NCBI RefSeq assembly: GCF_017792025.1
Contig: NZ_CP046956.1
Span: 744,001 to 808,000 of the forward strand
Length of the DNA stretch: 64,000 bases
DNA from: Sediminibacillus dalangtanensis
GTDB taxonomy: Bacteria > Bacillota > Bacilli > Bacillales > Amphibacillaceae
Reading direction: 5' to 3'
Shown: positions 44,206 through 50,035 of the stretch, piece by piece
Layout: the number at the start of each line of letters is the position of its first letter
Numbering within the stretch: position 1 is the first letter of the stretch
The notes under the pieces: generated by a model
The model's database searches: none
Told to the model about the DNA's origin: nothing
The model's input: only the letters and a program-made list of their open reading frames with translations
Program-made: the position numbers and the translations under genes

Positions 44206-44421
44206 ATGATGGAAGAGATGACCAGAAGGTGCCGGTTATGTCAGGAACCGATGCCACCATCACCGTTTATGACGTGTCCCGCTTGTTTGGCAGATAGTGA
44301 GAAGGTGAAGACGTACATCCTGAAACATCCGCATGTGACCCCTGAGAAAATTGCTGAAGAAACGGAAGTTCCTTTGGACAAGGTGTCTAATATGGTTAAA
44401 TTAGGTGTAAATTCTAAATAG
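44206..44421 (+). CDS. Small zinc-ribbon / helix-turn-helix protein (YvyF-like)
   Basis: A 71-residue protein with CRLCQEPMPPSPFMTCPACLA, four cysteines in two CxxC pairs that should bind zinc. A short helix-turn-helix-like part follows (VTPEKIAEETEVPLDKVSNMVKLG). The layout recalls YvyF (FlgM-operon flagellar protein) of Bacillus, but there are no flagellar genes here, so it may be a paralog. AAAGGGTGAG lies just before ATG 44206; ATG 44209 and 44218 are alternatives. It ends at a terminator just before the ISL3 insertion. Confidence 0.6.
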   Translation: MMEEMTRRCRLCQEPMPPSPFMTCPACLADSEKVKTYILKHPHVTPEKIAEETEVPLDKVSNMVKLGVNSK

Positions 44422-44617: not shown

Positions 44618-45646
44618 GTGCAACGTCATTTTATCATAGAATTACTGGGGATTAAAGATAAACAAGTAGATGTATGGAATATAGAGGAAGAAGGAAGTGT
44701 CTTAAGAGTAGAGCTTTACACAAGACAAAGGCAACAAAAGTGCCCGTTCTGTAAAGAGAAAACAAAACGCGTACATGGGTATAGAAATCAAGCCATCCAA
44801 GGTCCTGTTTTGTCCAACAAAGCCGTTCGGCTTTCCTTGCGTAAGCGTCGGTACTTATGTACCAGCTGTGGACGCACCTTTTACGAGCGCCTGCAGATGG
44901 TAGAGTTTTATCAACGGTGTACGAGTGCCTTGAAAACACCGGCATTAACCTATACGGCCTTTCATTCTTTTACCACCGCAGCCCGGTTGGCAGGAATGAC
45001 CACCAACCGGTTACTCCGATTGTTTGATCAACAACAGCTAAAAACAAGAAAGGTTCTTCCTCGGGCAATAGCTATTGATGAGTTCAAAGGAGATGCAGGA
45101 GGAGAAAGGTTCCAAACCAATGTGGTGGACGTGGAGAATAGAGAGATTATTGACATCCTTCCCGATCGAAAAGTAGAGACAATCGAAAAGTACTTACGTT
45201 CCTGTGATACCAGTAAAGTGGAAATCGTCGTAATGAATTTATCGAAATCATTTAAGCAGGCAGTCCGCAAGGTACTAGGAGATCCATTAATCATTGCCGA
45301 CCGATTTCATTTCATGCGGCAGATTTATTGGGGATTGGATGAAGTTCGCCGAGAAGTTCAACGAGAGGTAGATAAGCAGACACGTATTCACATGAAGCGA
45401 AGCAAGAAGCTGTTGTGGAAGTCGCCTTCCAAACTGTCAGAAGAAGGGCGACAAAAGGTGGAAAAGCTTCTACAGATCCATCCCCGTTTAAAAGAAGCGT
45501 ATGCATTAGAGCGAAATAGCGTAGCAGAGGAAATAAGCGAGACTCCTGCGGAAAAACGGGCGGCCGAGACCCCGCAGCGGGCTTTGCGAGGAGGCTCGGG
45601 CGTTCGTCCGCGGAAAGCGAGTTTATTTCCTCTGCGGTCTGAGTAA
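44618..45646 (+). pseudogene. ISL3-family transposase, C-terminally deleted
   Basis: From GTG 44618 (behind AGAGAGGGATATGA) the frame reads 342 residues. It has the ISL3 zinc-binding start CPFCKEKTKRVHGYR ... YLCTSCGRTFYERL, a helix-turn-helix, and the DDE core AIDEFKGDAGGERFQTNVVD and PLIIADRFHFMRQIYWGLDEVRREVQ. After RLKEAYAL it jumps straight into the 112-bp repeat module, whose reading (ETPAEKRAAETPQRALRGG) is not transposase. The missing part, with the final catalytic Glu region NGYIEGINN, survives in the remnant at 37658-38404. The product is probably inactive. Confidence 0.85.
45524..45635. repeat. 112-bp inverted-repeat module inside ISL3 copy 2
   Basis: It has the same GCAGAGGAAATAA / TTATTTCCTCTGC ends and length as the module at 38202-38313, and differs at few positions. 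Its interior resembles the ACTCCTGCGG...CCGCGGAAAGCGAG repeats scattered in Bacillaceae genomes. Confidence 0.75.
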
Positions 45647-45785
45647 AATAGCTGTTTTTAGAATGAGCCTTTCGATAAAGAGAGGGTGGAAGAAAGATCA
45701 CACCACCACATTTGACAGAGAACCAAATTTAACTGAAGGAACGTGAAAGCTGCGAGTCGAACTATCAGAAAAATATAACAACAGG

Positions 45786-45814
45786 TTGACACACAATGTT
45801 CACAATTATATAAT
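45786..45814 (+). promoter_or_regulatory. Consensus SigA promoter of the bmr leader
   Basis: TTGACA (45786-45791) and TATAAT (45809-45814) are 17 bases apart, a full match to consensus. It lies about 60 bases right of the ISL3 element. Confidence 0.85.
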
Positions 45815-45850
45815 AAGAAAGCATTAAACGTTGAAAGGAGGTCACAGACC

Positions 45851-45925
45851 ATGAAAAAAGTAATGATTGTGCGTTTCTATAAACTTCATACGCCTGTGGC
45901 CTTCTGGAAGCCTTATGTTGCCTAA
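45851..45925 (+). CDS. 24-residue leader peptide upstream of bmrCD (BmrB-like)
   Basis: ATG 45851 follows GAAAGGAGGTCACAGACC and encodes MKKVMIVRFYKLHTPVAFWK followed by PYVA and a stop. It is the first translated frame after a consensus promoter, and two factor-independent terminators stand between it and bmrC. In B. subtilis bmrCD is preceded by a translated leader, bmrB, through which translation-blocking antibiotics relieve transcription attenuation. The layout here suggests the same logic with a shorter peptide. The GGTCAC in its ribosome site and a second GGTCAC at 45977-45982 can both pair with CGTGAC at 45996-46001, offering exclusive folds. Confidence 0.7.
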   Translation: MKKVMIVRFYKLHTPVAFWKPYVA

Positions 45926-45977
45926 CTACTAGAGGAAATTCTGCACTGGATTTAATGTACATAAGCATATTCACTAG

Positions 45978-46001
45978 GTCACGAATAACCATTTCCGTGA
46001 C
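45978..46001 (+). promoter_or_regulatory. Hairpin preceding the bmr leader terminator
   Basis: GTCACG (45978-45983) pairs with CGTGAC (45996-46001). The 3' arm can alternatively pair with GGTCAC at 45840-45845 in the leader ribosome site, so it may be part of an attenuation switch. That use is inference. Confidence 0.4.
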
Positions 46002-46011
46002 TTATTTTGTT

Positions 46012-46046
46012 AGACACACGTCTGCGGATGTGTGTCTATTTTTTTA
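46012..46046 (+). terminator. First terminator of the bmr leader
   Basis: AGACACACGT (46012-46021) pairs with ATGTGTGTCT (46028-46037), with one G-U, and runs into a long T tract. Confidence 0.85.
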
Positions 46047-46090
46047 CCCAAATTATGGATCTGAGCGAAACCAAGTATAAGAAAAACGAA

Positions 46091-46127
46091 AGCATTCGCC
46101 ATAATCTGGCGATATGCTAAGTTTTTC
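46091..46127 (+). terminator. Second hairpin/terminator of the bmr leader
   Basis: AGCATTCGCCA pairs with TGGCGATATGCT, with one bulge, and is followed by AAGTTTTTC. It is a second barrier before bmrC. Confidence 0.6.
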
Positions 46128-46162
46128 TAACATATACATATCAATTTAGGGAGGGGTTGTTG

Positions 46163-46219
46163 ATGGGTGTGATACAGCGTAAACAGGAAGTAATACAGGA
46201 TTGGAAAGAGAGCGGTTAG
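46163..46219 (+). CDS. Possible second small leader ORF (18 residues)
   Basis: ATG 46163 is preceded by GGGAGGGG and encodes MGVIQRKQEVIQDWKESG, then TAG, 34 bases before bmrC. A strong ribosome site on so short a frame suggests a role in translation coupling or a remnant of a longer leader gene. Support is limited to the ribosome site and position. Confidence 0.35.
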   Translation: MGVIQRKQEVIQDWKESG

Positions 46220-46253
46220 CAAATTTATCGAAGAAAAGAAGCAGGTGACAAGC

Positions 46254-48002
46254 ATGTTTAGTGTATTTTGGAAGTTGGATTGGTTTTTTAAAAAATATTG
46301 GAAAAGGTATAGTTTTGCAATTGTCGCTTTGATTGCTGCGAGTTTAATTGACTTGATTCCACCAAAGCTGGTGGGAATGGCGATTGACGAAATGCAGTTC
46401 CAAACATTTAATTGGGATCGCATGATTGAACTTTTGTTGCTATATAGTTTGATTATCATTTTAAGTTACACCATTTCTTTCTTATGGGACTATAACTTAT
46501 TCGGCGGTGCTGCCATTATGGAGAAACTGATGCGCACCCGTCTGATGAATCATTTTCTGCGGATGACTCCGACCTTTTTCGGAAAGTACCGGACTGGTGA
46601 CTTAATGGCAAGAAGCACCAATGATTTAAAAGCGATATCGATGACGACAGGATTTGGCATCCTTACCCTGGTCGATTCAAGTATATTCATGCTGATGATC
46701 ATTGTGGTGATGGGTTTTACCATCAGCTGGAAGCTGACCATTGCAGCGCTTTTGCCGCTGCCGATCATGGCAGTCGTCATGCAAAAATACGGAAATGTCA
46801 TTCATGACCGTTTTACCAAAGCGCAGCATGCCTTTGGCGAAATGAATAATGAAGTTCTGGAATCCATTCGAGGCGTTCGGGTAATCCGTGCCTTTGTTCA
46901 AGAGGAACAAGATGAGCAGCGGTTTCAGACAATGACTTCCGATGTGTATCAAAAGAATCTGGAAGTAGCGAAAATAGATGCATTGTTCGAGCCTACCATG
47001 AAAATACTTGTCGGTTTATCCTATACGGTTGGATTAGGATATGGGGCCATGTTGGTATTTCAAAATGTTTTGACCATCGGCGAGCTTGTATCGTTCAATG
47101 TCTATTTAGGGATGCTGATTTGGCCAATGTTTGCCGTCGGTGAATTAATCAATGTCATGCAGCGGGGAAATGCCTCGTTGGATCGTGTCAACGAGACGCT
47201 TGGCTATCAGGCGGACGTTCGGAATCCGGTTCAACCATCGAGCACCCGTTCTCCTGAATCGATTGTTTTTGACAAGGTAAGCTTCGCTTATCCGGATAGT
47301 GCACAAGACAGTCTGGAGGCGATTGATTTCAAGGTGGAAAAAGGGCAGACAATTGGGATCGTCGGTAAAACAGGGGCTGGCAAGACGACATTGTTCAAGC
47401 AATTGCTGCGCGAGTATCCTGGTATGCGTGGAGATTTGCGAATTTCGGGAATACCGATCGAGCAACTGAGCTTAGAGGATGTCCGCAGCTGGATCGGATA
47501 TGTGCCTCAAGAGCAAATCCTGTTTTCCAAAACCATTCGGGAAAACATACAATTCGGAAAGCCAGAGGCGACGGATAAGGAAATATTCCGGGTTATGGAA
47601 ACAGCCCAATTCCTGAAAGATATCCAGGCGCTTCCGAAAGGGCTCGATACGACGGTGGGCGAGAGTGGCGTAACGTTATCAGGAGGGCAGAAACAGCGGG
47701 TGTCTTTAGCGAGGGCTTTTATCAAAGATCCACAAATTCTTATCCTGGATGACGCTTTGTCGGCAGTTGACGGCAAAACGGAAGCAAATATTATAGGCCA
47801 CTTAAAACAAGAACGTAAAAATAAAACGACCTTCATCGCTGCCCACCGACTATCGGCAGTGGAACATGCTGATTTGATCATCGTGCTCGATGACGGGAAA
47901 GTAGTAGAGAGAGGAACACACCAACAATTAATGGAGATCCATGGCTGGTATGCAGCACAATTTCAACTGCAGCAGCTTGAAGAACAGGAGGTGATCTCCT
48001 AA
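46254..48002 (+). CDS. bmrC: Heterodimeric multidrug ABC exporter subunit BmrC (YheI)
   Basis: A 582-residue half-transporter with six N-terminal helices and an ATPase domain. It closely follows B. subtilis BmrC from MFSVFWKLDWFF onward; the GTG 46245 start would add three residues. Walker A is GIVGKTGAGKTT near residue 370, the signature LSGGQKQRVSLARA. Walker B is ILILDDALSAVD, with Asp where the catalytic Glu normally stands. This is the degenerate site known for BmrC-type subunits. With BmrD it pumps drugs out across the membrane. Its stop overlaps the bmrD start by one base. Expression is probably controlled by the leader upstream. Confidence 0.92.
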   Translation: MFSVFWKLDWFFKKYWKRYSFAIVALIAASLIDLIPPKLVGMAIDEMQFQTFNWDRMIELLLLYSLIIILSYTISFLWDYNLFGGAAIMEKLMRTRLMNHFLRMTPTFFGKYRTGDLMARSTNDLKAISMTTGFGILTLVDSSIFMLMIIVVMGFTISWKLTIAALLPLPIMAVVMQKYGNVIHDRFTKAQHAFGEMNNEVLESIRGVRVIRAFVQEEQDEQRFQTMTSDVYQKNLEVAKIDALFEPTMKILVGLSYTVGLGYGAMLVFQNVLTIGELVSFNVYLGMLIWPMFAVGELINVMQRGNASLDRVNETLGYQADVRNPVQPSSTRSPESIVFDKVSFAYPDSAQDSLEAIDFKVEKGQTIGIVGKTGAGKTTLFKQLLREYPGMRGDLRISGIPIEQLSLEDVRSWIGYVPQEQILFSKTIRENIQFGKPEATDKEIFRVMETAQFLKDIQALPKGLDTTVGESGVTLSGGQKQRVSLARAFIKDPQILILDDALSAVDGKTEANIIGHLKQERKNKTTFIAAHRLSAVEHADLIIVLDDGKVVERGTHQQLMEIHGWYAAQFQLQQLEEQEVIS

Positions 48003-50035
48003 TGAAGAAGACAACGACAGAAGTGAAATTATTTCAATACGCGATGAAATTTAAGAAAACCATCATTCTAGGTCTTATTTGTCTAGTTGTCGCGGTAGCG
48101 CTTGAACTGGCAGGTCCGTTTATCGCGAAGCGTGTCATTGATGAGCATATAACCGGGATTGAAACAACGTGGCATCAAGTGGATGATCGGAATGATAAGT
48201 ACACAGTTTCGTTTGGCGGAGATTACTACAAGCGCGAAGACCGCATGAAACAAGGGGAAGTATCCTTGGGGACAGTCAGTTTGATGCAGGTGGGCAGGTC
48301 TTACTATCTTACGGATAAAGAAGTTAGCCAAACTGGAACGCGGAGTGTCGAGGATGGTACTGTCACAGTAGTGTCTCCAGCAGGGACCGAAAAAGCAGAA
48401 GTGCAAAAGCTGAGTGTTACAGATTTGTACAGTTTTTTCAAACCAGAACAGTCGCCGATTGTGTGGCTTTTGAGTTTGTATGTGCTGTTGCTGTTGATTG
48501 CAGCAATCTTTCAATTTGGAAAAACCTACTTGCTGCAAAAAGCTTCCAACCGGGTAGTGGAAAAGATGCGCAATGATATCTTCAAGCATACACAAGAGGT
48601 GTCGATTCAGTACTATGTCAATCAGCCAGCCGGAAAAGTTGTGGCCAGGGTGACCAATGATACGGAAGCAATCAGGGATTTGTATGAACGGGTGCTGTCC
48701 GTATTTGTCACAAGCATCATTTACATGGCGGGAATATATATCGCATTATTCCTGCTGGACTTTCGTCTTGCCGCACTTTGTTTAATCCTGTTGCCGATCA
48801 TTTATCTATGGATGAAAGTGTATAAGCATTTTGGAACAAAGTATAACAAGGTGGTTCGATCGACGGTTAGTGATATCAACGGAAATATTAACGAATCGAT
48901 TCATGGCATGCCCATTATCCAAGCATTTCAAAGAGAAGAACAGGCGAGCAAAGAATTCGAACAGATGAATGAACGACACTTTGTGTACCAACGTAAGCTT
49001 GTAAAGCTTAGTGCGTTAACTTCGCACAATCTGGTCAATGTGTTGCGGAACCTCGCGTTCGTTGCATTCATATGGTATTTCGGCTCTTCCTCTATTGGTC
49101 CTGAAAGTATCATTACAGCTGGCGTTTTGTATGCGTTTGTCGATTACTTAACACGGCTTTTTAATCCGGTAAATGACATCGTCAATCAACTCCCATTATT
49201 AGAGCAGGCGAGGGTGGCGGCGTCAAGAGTTTTTGAATTGATGGACCAGCAGGGAGAGAAAGTCGAAACTGCATCCATTGCAAAATATAAAGGGCATGTC
49301 CAGTTTCAGTCAGTCTGGTTTGCTTATGACGAGAAAGAGTATGTCTTGAAAAATATTGATTTGGACATTCGGCCGGGAGAAACAGCAGCTTTTGTGGGAC
49401 ATACCGGATCCGGCAAAAGCTCAATCATGAATTTGCTGTTCCGGTTCTATGATCCGCAGGAAGGAAACATTTTGATTGATGGCAAGGAGATTGTTGGTTT
49501 GTCGAGACAACAAGTAAGAAGCCATATGGGAATCGTATTGCAGGATCCGTTTCTTTTCACGGGCACCATTTTGTCGAATGTAACCATGAATGATCCAACT
49601 ATTTCCCGGGAAATGGCGATAGATGCATTAAAGGCGGTTGGTGCTGACCGGTTCATCGAGCGACTGCCAGGTCAGTATGAAGAGCCCGTTAAAGAAGGCG
49701 GAAATACATTCTCCATGGGAGAACGGCAGCTGATTTCCTTTGCACGCGCTCTGGCATTCGATCCTTCCATTCTGATTCTTGATGAGGCTACGGCCAATAT
49801 CGATACAGAAACGGAAAACGTTATTCAAGAAGCATTGAATGTACTGAAAAAGGGACGTACGACCTTGATTATCGCCCACCGACTCTCAACAATCCAGCAG
49901 GCGGATAACATCTTTGTTCTGGAGCATGGTACAATCAAAGAACAAGGCAATCACCAAAGTTTGCTGGAGCAGGCCGGCCTCTATTATCAAATGTATCAGA
50001 TGCAGCAGGGCAGGCTGAAGGAGCAGGTCATTTAA
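48002..50035 (+). CDS. bmrD: Heterodimeric multidrug ABC exporter subunit BmrD (YheH)
   Basis: A 677-residue half-transporter (B. subtilis BmrD 673). It has the characteristic large extracellular insertion between the first two helices (about 45-150, rich in charged residues such as DDRNDKYTVSFGGDYYKRED). Walker A is GHTGSGKSS, the catalytic Glu is present in ILILDEATANID, and the signature is the degenerate FSMGERQLISFARA. The normal catalytic Glu here and the Asp in BmrC, with the altered signature, leave one good and one degenerate ATP site, as expected of the BmrCD heterodimer. Start and bmrC stop overlap (TAATG). Confidence 0.92.
   Translation: MKKTTTEVKLFQYAMKFKKTIILGLICLVVAVALELAGPFIAKRVIDEHITGIETTWHQVDDRNDKYTVSFGGDYYKREDRMKQGEVSLGTVSLMQVGRSYYLTDKEVSQTGTRSVEDGTVTVVSPAGTEKAEVQKLSVTDLYSFFKPEQSPIVWLLSLYVLLLLIAAIFQFGKTYLLQKASNRVVEKMRNDIFKHTQEVSIQYYVNQPAGKVVARVTNDTEAIRDLYERVLSVFVTSIIYMAGIYIALFLLDFRLAALCLILLPIIYLWMKVYKHFGTKYNKVVRSTVSDINGNINESIHGMPIIQAFQREEQASKEFEQMNERHFVYQRKLVKLSALTSHNLVNVLRNLAFVAFIWYFGSSSIGPESIITAGVLYAFVDYLTRLFNPVNDIVNQLPLLEQARVAASRVFELMDQQGEKVETASIAKYKGHVQFQSVWFAYDEKEYVLKNIDLDIRPGETAAFVGHTGSGKSSIMNLLFRFYDPQEGNILIDGKEIVGLSRQQVRSHMGIVLQDPFLFTGTILSNVTMNDPTISREMAIDALKAVGADRFIERLPGQYEEPVKEGGNTFSMGERQLISFARALAFDPSILILDEATANIDTETENVIQEALNVLKKGRTTLIIAHRLSTIQQADNIFVLEHGTIKEQGNHQSLLEQAGLYYQMYQMQQGRLKEQVI

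Follow-up and report, generated by a model that had tools for sequence, protein, structure and literature searches.

The bmrC and bmrD genes of Sediminibacillus dalangtanensis are preceded by a genuine leader which, as far as sequence comparison can tell, is conserved and has a more elaborate structure than the earlier description gave it. It is probably a transcription attenuator of bmrCD built on a leader ORF, and likely operates as a relay tripped by a ribosome. We infer that the ribosome serves as the sensor and is arrested early by antibiotics, and that two pairings formed in order (B:C and D:E, defined below) lead to read-through. The window, by which we mean the whole stretch of 64,000 nucleotides analysed, lies in a genome consisting of a single contig of 4.1 Mb. 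Both genes are on the forward strand and encode ABC transporter subunits, with YheI as the best solved relative of bmrC (46254..48002; E 2.6e-244) and YheH as that of bmrD (48002..50035; E 6.6e-234), the two being chains of structure entries 8t1p and 7m33; by this match BmrC and BmrD are orthologous to the pair of the Bacillus subtilis bmrBCD system. The closest named relatives of bmrC are those of Sediminibacillus halophilus (96%), S. terrae (94%) and Virgibacillus senegalensis (89%), followed by S. albus (81%) and S. massiliensis (80%). An earlier sequence-only reading had proposed a leader-ORF attenuator ahead of these orthologues with GGTCAC elements in competing folds, and our comparisons lend support to that predicted arrangement.

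All elements of the leader lie on the forward strand. The perfect SigA-type promoter described earlier is present (-35 TTGACA, 17-base spacer, -10 TATAAT; 45786..45814; 12/12 match) and is kept in the genus relatives, the number of promoter-like sites in itself being no higher than in shuffles (2 found vs 2.1). It is followed by the ribosome-binding site AAAGGAGG (45834-45841; with context AAAGGAGGTCACAG) and, as also reported, by a leader ORF of 24 codons plus stop (MKKVMIVRFYKLHTPVAFWKPYVA; 45851..45925, ATG at 45851), whose peptide is not conserved in relatives. What that reading missed is that the leader ribosome-binding site with its flank (element A, AAGGAGGTCACAGA, 45835..45848) is complementary to the leader's own codons 15-19 (element B, CCTGTGGCCTTCTG, 45893..45906), giving an A:B pairing of -20.8 kcal/mol. 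B is complementary to element C as well (TAGGTCACG, 45975..45983), the 5' arm of terminator 1, so that in the window B can form 12 pairs with the ribosome-binding site and 8 with the GGTCAC at 45977. Element D (TCCGTGACTTA, 45994..46004) comprises the 3' arm of terminator 1 and two loop bases and runs into TTTTGTT. The C:D hairpin (arms TAGGTCACG and CGTGACTTA), which starts 49 nt past the leader stop, had been noticed as a 6-bp hairpin; its stem in fact has nine pairs (45975-46004). Since it leads into at least five T in all five genus relatives aligned, we read it as the first terminator, with its T run interrupted in the window.

Terminator 2 begins six bases past the C:D hairpin and is the strong terminator recognised before (46011-46038, 12 pairs, plus seven T); it is the sole terminator-like site within 45500-46500 (shuffles 0.7). 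The end of its 5' arm, its loop and the first bases of its 3' arm make up element E (GTCTGCGGA, 46020..46028), which is complementary to D (UCCGUGAC with GUC-U-GCGGA, 8 pairs, one bulge), and its 3' arm (46027-46038) and T run make up element F (46027..46045). GGTCAC is indeed present both at 45977 and within the leader ribosome-binding site, and CGTGAC at 45996-46001. The ribosome-binding-site GGTCAC could pair with that CGTGAC (A:D), but B is the better match for A as well as the closer one, and A:D was set aside. In sequence A resembles C and E, and B resembles D. One RNA can therefore be drawn with two alternative pairing sets, either A:B, C:D and E:F or, slipped by one register, B:C and D:E. 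The leader thus combines a short ORF with a ribosome-binding site between promoter and gene, an intrinsic terminator ahead of the gene and, in the predicted B:C and D:E, a conserved mutually exclusive antiterminator pairing, all features by which leader-peptide attenuators are recognised. The whole 435-nt leader is only modestly more stable than its shuffles (z -1.85; 7/100 shuffles fold as well), and the case consequently rests on comparison between genomes.

For this comparison we collected the DNA 5' of BmrC orthologues from the order and from class Bacilli (150 loci); in the class sample 119 genomes had a BmrC match, and upstream DNA was taken from 80. Repeats were removed (L001-L003 and L009, the same loci as L017, L019, L020 and L018), as were, before A:B was counted, non-orthologues (L010-L015) and duplicates (L068, L079, L145, L150, L152, L166). 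A candidate leader ORF was present in 135/150 loci and lacking in 15. Dinucleotide shuffles (200 per locus) were sent through the same ORF choice as the real locus. Across Bacilli, A:B was better than at least 190 of 200 shuffles in 105 of these 135 loci, where 7.4 would be expected, and better than at least 198 of 200 in 72; the remaining 30/135 failed the test.

Further measures were taken on the 84 non-redundant passing loci. First, among those long enough, 46/49 leaders had z < -2 vs 1 control bmrC start, the leaders having been pre-selected for passing the A:B test and the control not. Second, pairing was complete over the six positions that begin with the last base of the ribosome-binding site in 48/84 passing loci (shuffles 16.6) and in 65/134 when all loci were counted (shuffles 28.3). 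When leaders were swapped between loci, the own leader fell within the best 5% in only 40/84, because ribosome-binding sites resemble each other. Pair tables contain up to four Watson-Crick types per position; as they come from a program that maximises pairing, we place weight on the energy tests.

The sequence-only reading placed the signal in the leader peptide, with a drug-bound ribosome arresting at a peptide motif and thereby freeing a GGTCAC. MKKV starts are common to the leader peptides of the genus, which speaks for such stalling, yet the peptides do not align past close relatives and contain no conserved arrest motif of the ermC kind. The base of B facing the last ribosome-binding-site base, moreover, falls in frames 1, 2 and 0 in 35, 26 and 23 of 84 loci (23, 3 and 4 of 30 in the family subset), and V. 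senegalensis retains the B bases CTGTGGCCTTCTGGAA in a shifted reading frame. Peptide conservation was accordingly dropped as the signal. The distance from B to the start codon is 48-68 nt in 80% of loci (n=84), and given the size of the ribosome footprint, B at this distance would be free ahead of a ribosome in the first codons. Differing peptides and a B element read in all three frames make a generic early ribosome arrest likelier than a special arrest peptide, and if B works through its RNA rather than through the peptide it encodes, induction should follow from any drug that keeps ribosomes within the first codons, no special arrest motif being needed. Such generic arrest fits the inducers lincomycin, erythromycin and chloramphenicol described for B. 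subtilis (PMC4191407). Peptide-directed stalling is known in other leaders, for example through the RYR motif of B. subtilis tlrB (PMC6851288), and for the present leader we hold it to be distinctly unlikely. Separately, TTYATW occurs just 5' of B (here ~45882-45887) in 36/84 leaders when the interval +20 to +75 is considered (shuffles: mean 11, maximum 17). It is read in different frames among leaders, and may serve either as a pause signal or as a pairing partner of the start codon.

The antiterminator pairings were examined by comparing own with swapped partners in the 31 loci, out of 38 taken up, in which both terminators were assigned; L029, L035, L037, L038, L042, L043 and L050 lacked an assigned pair and were excluded (L037 and L043 had no leader call), and terminator borders were set by hand, several being trimmed. 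With phylogeny ignored, own partners paired better than swapped ones both for B:C (-14.58 vs -13.37 kcal/mol; P 0.0026) and for D:E (-10.89 vs -8.86 kcal/mol; P 2.5e-5). L005, L031, L036, L040 and L059 are marked cases of D:E; the window is not a marked case, as 27/30 swaps are no worse than its own B:C and 8/30 no worse than its own D:E. The D:E result was repeated in separate loci found by pattern search, where own partners were better in 12/15 (P 0.006, phylogeny ignored); these came from 20 loci, four already used being left out and L177 lost for lack of terminator 2. In addition, the D bases just before GTG vary together with E, position -1 being C-G in 15, T-A in 14 and T-G in 2 of the 31 loci as paired by a pairing-maximising program. 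The pattern GGAGGTYAY-GTGRCC-GGTCAC occurs once each in 31/120 family genomes, against one match for a reversed control, and bmrC lies downstream in all 20 of the 31 matches that were fetched; with a B-C gap of 75 where at most 68 was allowed, the leader of the window itself escapes the pattern. These comparisons show the predicted B:C and D:E to be conserved mostly in the window's family and the predicted A:B class-wide. The B:C result bears on the reading that A:B merely limits repeated translation of the leader, the terminators being fixed and no drug response existing. While the imperfect T run of terminator 1 in the window would suit it, B:C favours own partners and the orthologous B. subtilis operon is drug-induced via an attenuator (PMC4191407), so that we regard this reading as highly improbable.

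How the relay might operate can be outlined as follows. As long as the leader start is free of a held ribosome, the RNA would fold into A:B, C:D (terminator 1) and E:F (terminator 2), which would bring transcription to an end. If instead a ribosome is arrested over the leader ribosome-binding site or within the first few codons, it would occupy A; B would then be available to C, and D to E, so that neither terminator could form. A ribosome that translates freely would pass over B and depart, upon which A:B would close and termination follow. Antibiotics that slow protein synthesis would in this way leave a stuck ribosome that trips the chain of hairpins, and the pump would be made.

We modelled these states by partition-function folding of the RNA to the end of E with the ribosome footprint held unpaired. 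In the window, A:B (0.99) and C:D (0.95) prevail without a ribosome and D:E is absent (0.00). A ribosome at codon 5 gives B:C 0.57, C:D 0.37 and D:E 0.40, and one over B restores C:D (0.94; D:E 0.00). The gain is small at codon 1 (C:D 0.55, D:E 0.25) and at codon 3 (D:E 0.14). Defining a switch as D:E of at least 0.3 with an early ribosome and at most 0.15 without a ribosome or with one on B, 17/31 loci switch; D:E stays below 0.1 in 6/31, and reaches at least 0.4 even without a ribosome in five (L005, L025, L027, L030, L031). When F has been fully made and the ribosome sits at codon 5, E:F reaches at least 0.87 in 12 of the 14 loci computed, L005 and L031 keeping D:E. As the finished terminator 2 wins at equilibrium, D:E would have to act kinetically, with B:C and D:E formed in the order of transcription, and this ordered formation, which the model requires, is its weakest step.

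The same folding results leave room for an attenuator of three hairpins that ends at terminator 1, in which A:B, B:C and C:D are genuine pairings, terminator 2 serves as a back-stop capping expression, and the fit of D to E arises incidentally from the relatedness of the hairpin sequences. The dominance of E:F at equilibrium in 12/14 loci and the absence of D:E from the model in 6/31 are what it would predict. It does not account for the preference of D:E for own partners (P 2.5e-5 in 31 loci; 12/15 in the further loci) or for the joint variation of the D bases before GTG with E (n=31; pairing-maximising program), and a strong, fixed terminator 2 would cancel the release of terminator 1. We consider this alternative unlikely, though a more serious contender than the others, and prefer the relay through both terminators.

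In B. subtilis the 50S-binding drugs lincomycin, erythromycin and chloramphenicol induce the bmrBCD operon (Reilman et al. 2014), kanamycin and gentamycin do not, and induction requires leader translation (PMC4191407). The published bmrB leader frame has 53 codons, starts with GTG and encloses the terminator; in the available part of that paper, the folds begin at nucleotide 60, there is one terminator and the ribosome-binding site has no role (PMC4191407). In one genome of our sample, BmrC agrees with the solved YheI chain at all of 574 residues and a 53-codon GTG frame lies at -281, as published for bmrB; this genome was therefore taken as B. subtilis. On closer inspection, a 23-codon ATG ORF (MPRNLRVYQTVSYWRGKPFVLFS) behind GGAAGGAGGG overlaps the annotated GTG bmrB in another frame, and its A:B pairing reaches -20.8 kcal/mol (0/100 shuffles as good). 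B:C (-19.0 kcal/mol) and D:E (-12.4 kcal/mol) can be drawn there, and singly are no better than shuffles (B:C is matched by 31/100 and D:E by 15/100). Among 17 close relatives, chosen from 43 matching Bacillus genomes for a BmrC at least ~80% identical to that of B. subtilis, the ATG leader was found in all 17, the search having required an ATG and a ribosome-binding site. At the fixed +16 offset, which ignores indels, the annotated GTG position is a start codon in 11/17 and opens a frame of at least 50 codons in only 8/17, and a conserved Bacillus leader of the published GTG type is thus unsupported.

We propose that the 23-codon ATG frame is the sensor in B. subtilis. The chromosomal BmrB-GFP fusion gave no detectable fluorescence and the plasmid version was fluorescent, which shows the annotated frame to be translatable when overexpressed; the bmrB start-codon mutant also altered four 5'-UTR bases (PMC4191407). 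These published fusion and mutant data do not separate the GTG from the ATG frame. The window shares with B. subtilis the orthologous transporter, a leader ORF, alternative hairpins and a terminator, and the same A:B pairing is found at the bmrBCD locus. It differs from the published bmrB in that the leader is a 24-codon ATG frame with two terminators, both after its stop (PMC4191407), and holds no 53-codon GTG leader frame enclosing a terminator. The earlier description of the window's leader as a shorter relative of bmrB thus does not hold, as in place it matches the 23-codon ATG frame overlapping bmrB. A wider generalisation is a register-slip (domino) attenuator ancient in Bacilli, made of the alternating quasi-repeats A-F, in which a ribosome on the leader ribosome-binding site, regardless of the peptide, would shift each of three hairpins to the next partner, opening two terminators in tandem, with B. 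subtilis using the same principle from its unannotated 23-codon frame and not from annotated bmrB; our belief in this generalisation is evenly balanced.

The relay would depart from leader-peptide attenuators in two respects, the ribosome-binding site being the first pairing element and one event being passed to two terminators. If true, one leader would sense several ribosome drugs without an arrest peptide, a relay handing one ribosome event to two terminators would be added to the known mechanisms, and B. subtilis bmrCD would gain a different sensor ORF and a link from ribosome to anti-terminator. In the E. coli trp attenuator, region 1 lies in the leader codons and not in the ribosome-binding site. 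Trp codons fix the stall there and one terminator is used, unlike in the window; mutually exclusive 1:2, 2:3 and 3:4 pairing set by ribosome position is common to both (summarised in PMC4191407). The vmlR attenuator of B. subtilis shares uORF stalling, an anti-antiterminator, an antiterminator and a terminator, and differs in its three-codon uORF within the anti-antiterminator stem, its single terminator and a single-stranded ribosome-binding site 5' of that stem (PMC9226507). The tlrB/yxjB leader of B. subtilis likewise combines an antibiotic-stalled leader with terminator read-through, and differs in having nine codons, an RYR arrest motif and additional translation control, with no antiterminator found according to the available part of PMC6851288. 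The best Rfam matches of the window lie far under the gathering score (ncr1241, 21 vs 60 bits), and L137, L005, L040 and L127 match no family. In the open-licence literature, where absence is not proven by such a search, we found no other paper on the bmrCD leader by title or abstract opening, others mentioning bmrCD, and none combining tandem terminators, a leader peptide and an antiterminator.

Between terminator 2 and bmrC, the second hairpin with a T tract reported earlier is present (about 46080..46127, + strand), and a place in the core of the leader had to be rejected, as it occurs in one to three copies in 4/6 genus loci (one in the window, two in S. halophilus, three in S. terrae, two in V. 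senegalensis) and in none in S. albus and S. massiliensis. It has no second match in its own genome. The relay does not explain it, and read-through to bmrC would have to pass it. The 18-codon frame before bmrC was likewise correctly described (MGVIQRKQEVIQDWKESG behind GGGAGGGG; 46163..46219, + strand), and a similar frame precedes bmrC in relatives. A small ORF ending in [G/S/D/N]G-stop 12-60 nt before bmrC is present in 72/150 loci (0 to 3 in ten shuffled runs), most with the endings EGG (37) or ESG (21), and perhaps serves translational coupling or a second layer of control.

Several observations concern the neighbourhood of the leader. An ISL3-family transposase ORF (44618-45646) lies just 5' of the promoter, its Pfam match stopping at 154 of 240, and a 131-bp repeat with 20 matches in its own genome (45515-45645) fills the end of this ORF. 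The 71-residue gene at 44206-44421 has no Pfam match, and its relatives lie directly 5' of the leader in several loci (e.g. L004, L007, L026, L027). Lastly, in L021, L022 and L023 an ORF of 44-48 codons precedes bmrC, flanked on either side by a copy of the second small ORF; it starts like BmrC (MFS.FRK.DWFF..RYTFV), has a shared type of tail (..PLIDQMVFI.S..) and is possibly a small BmrC-derived protein.
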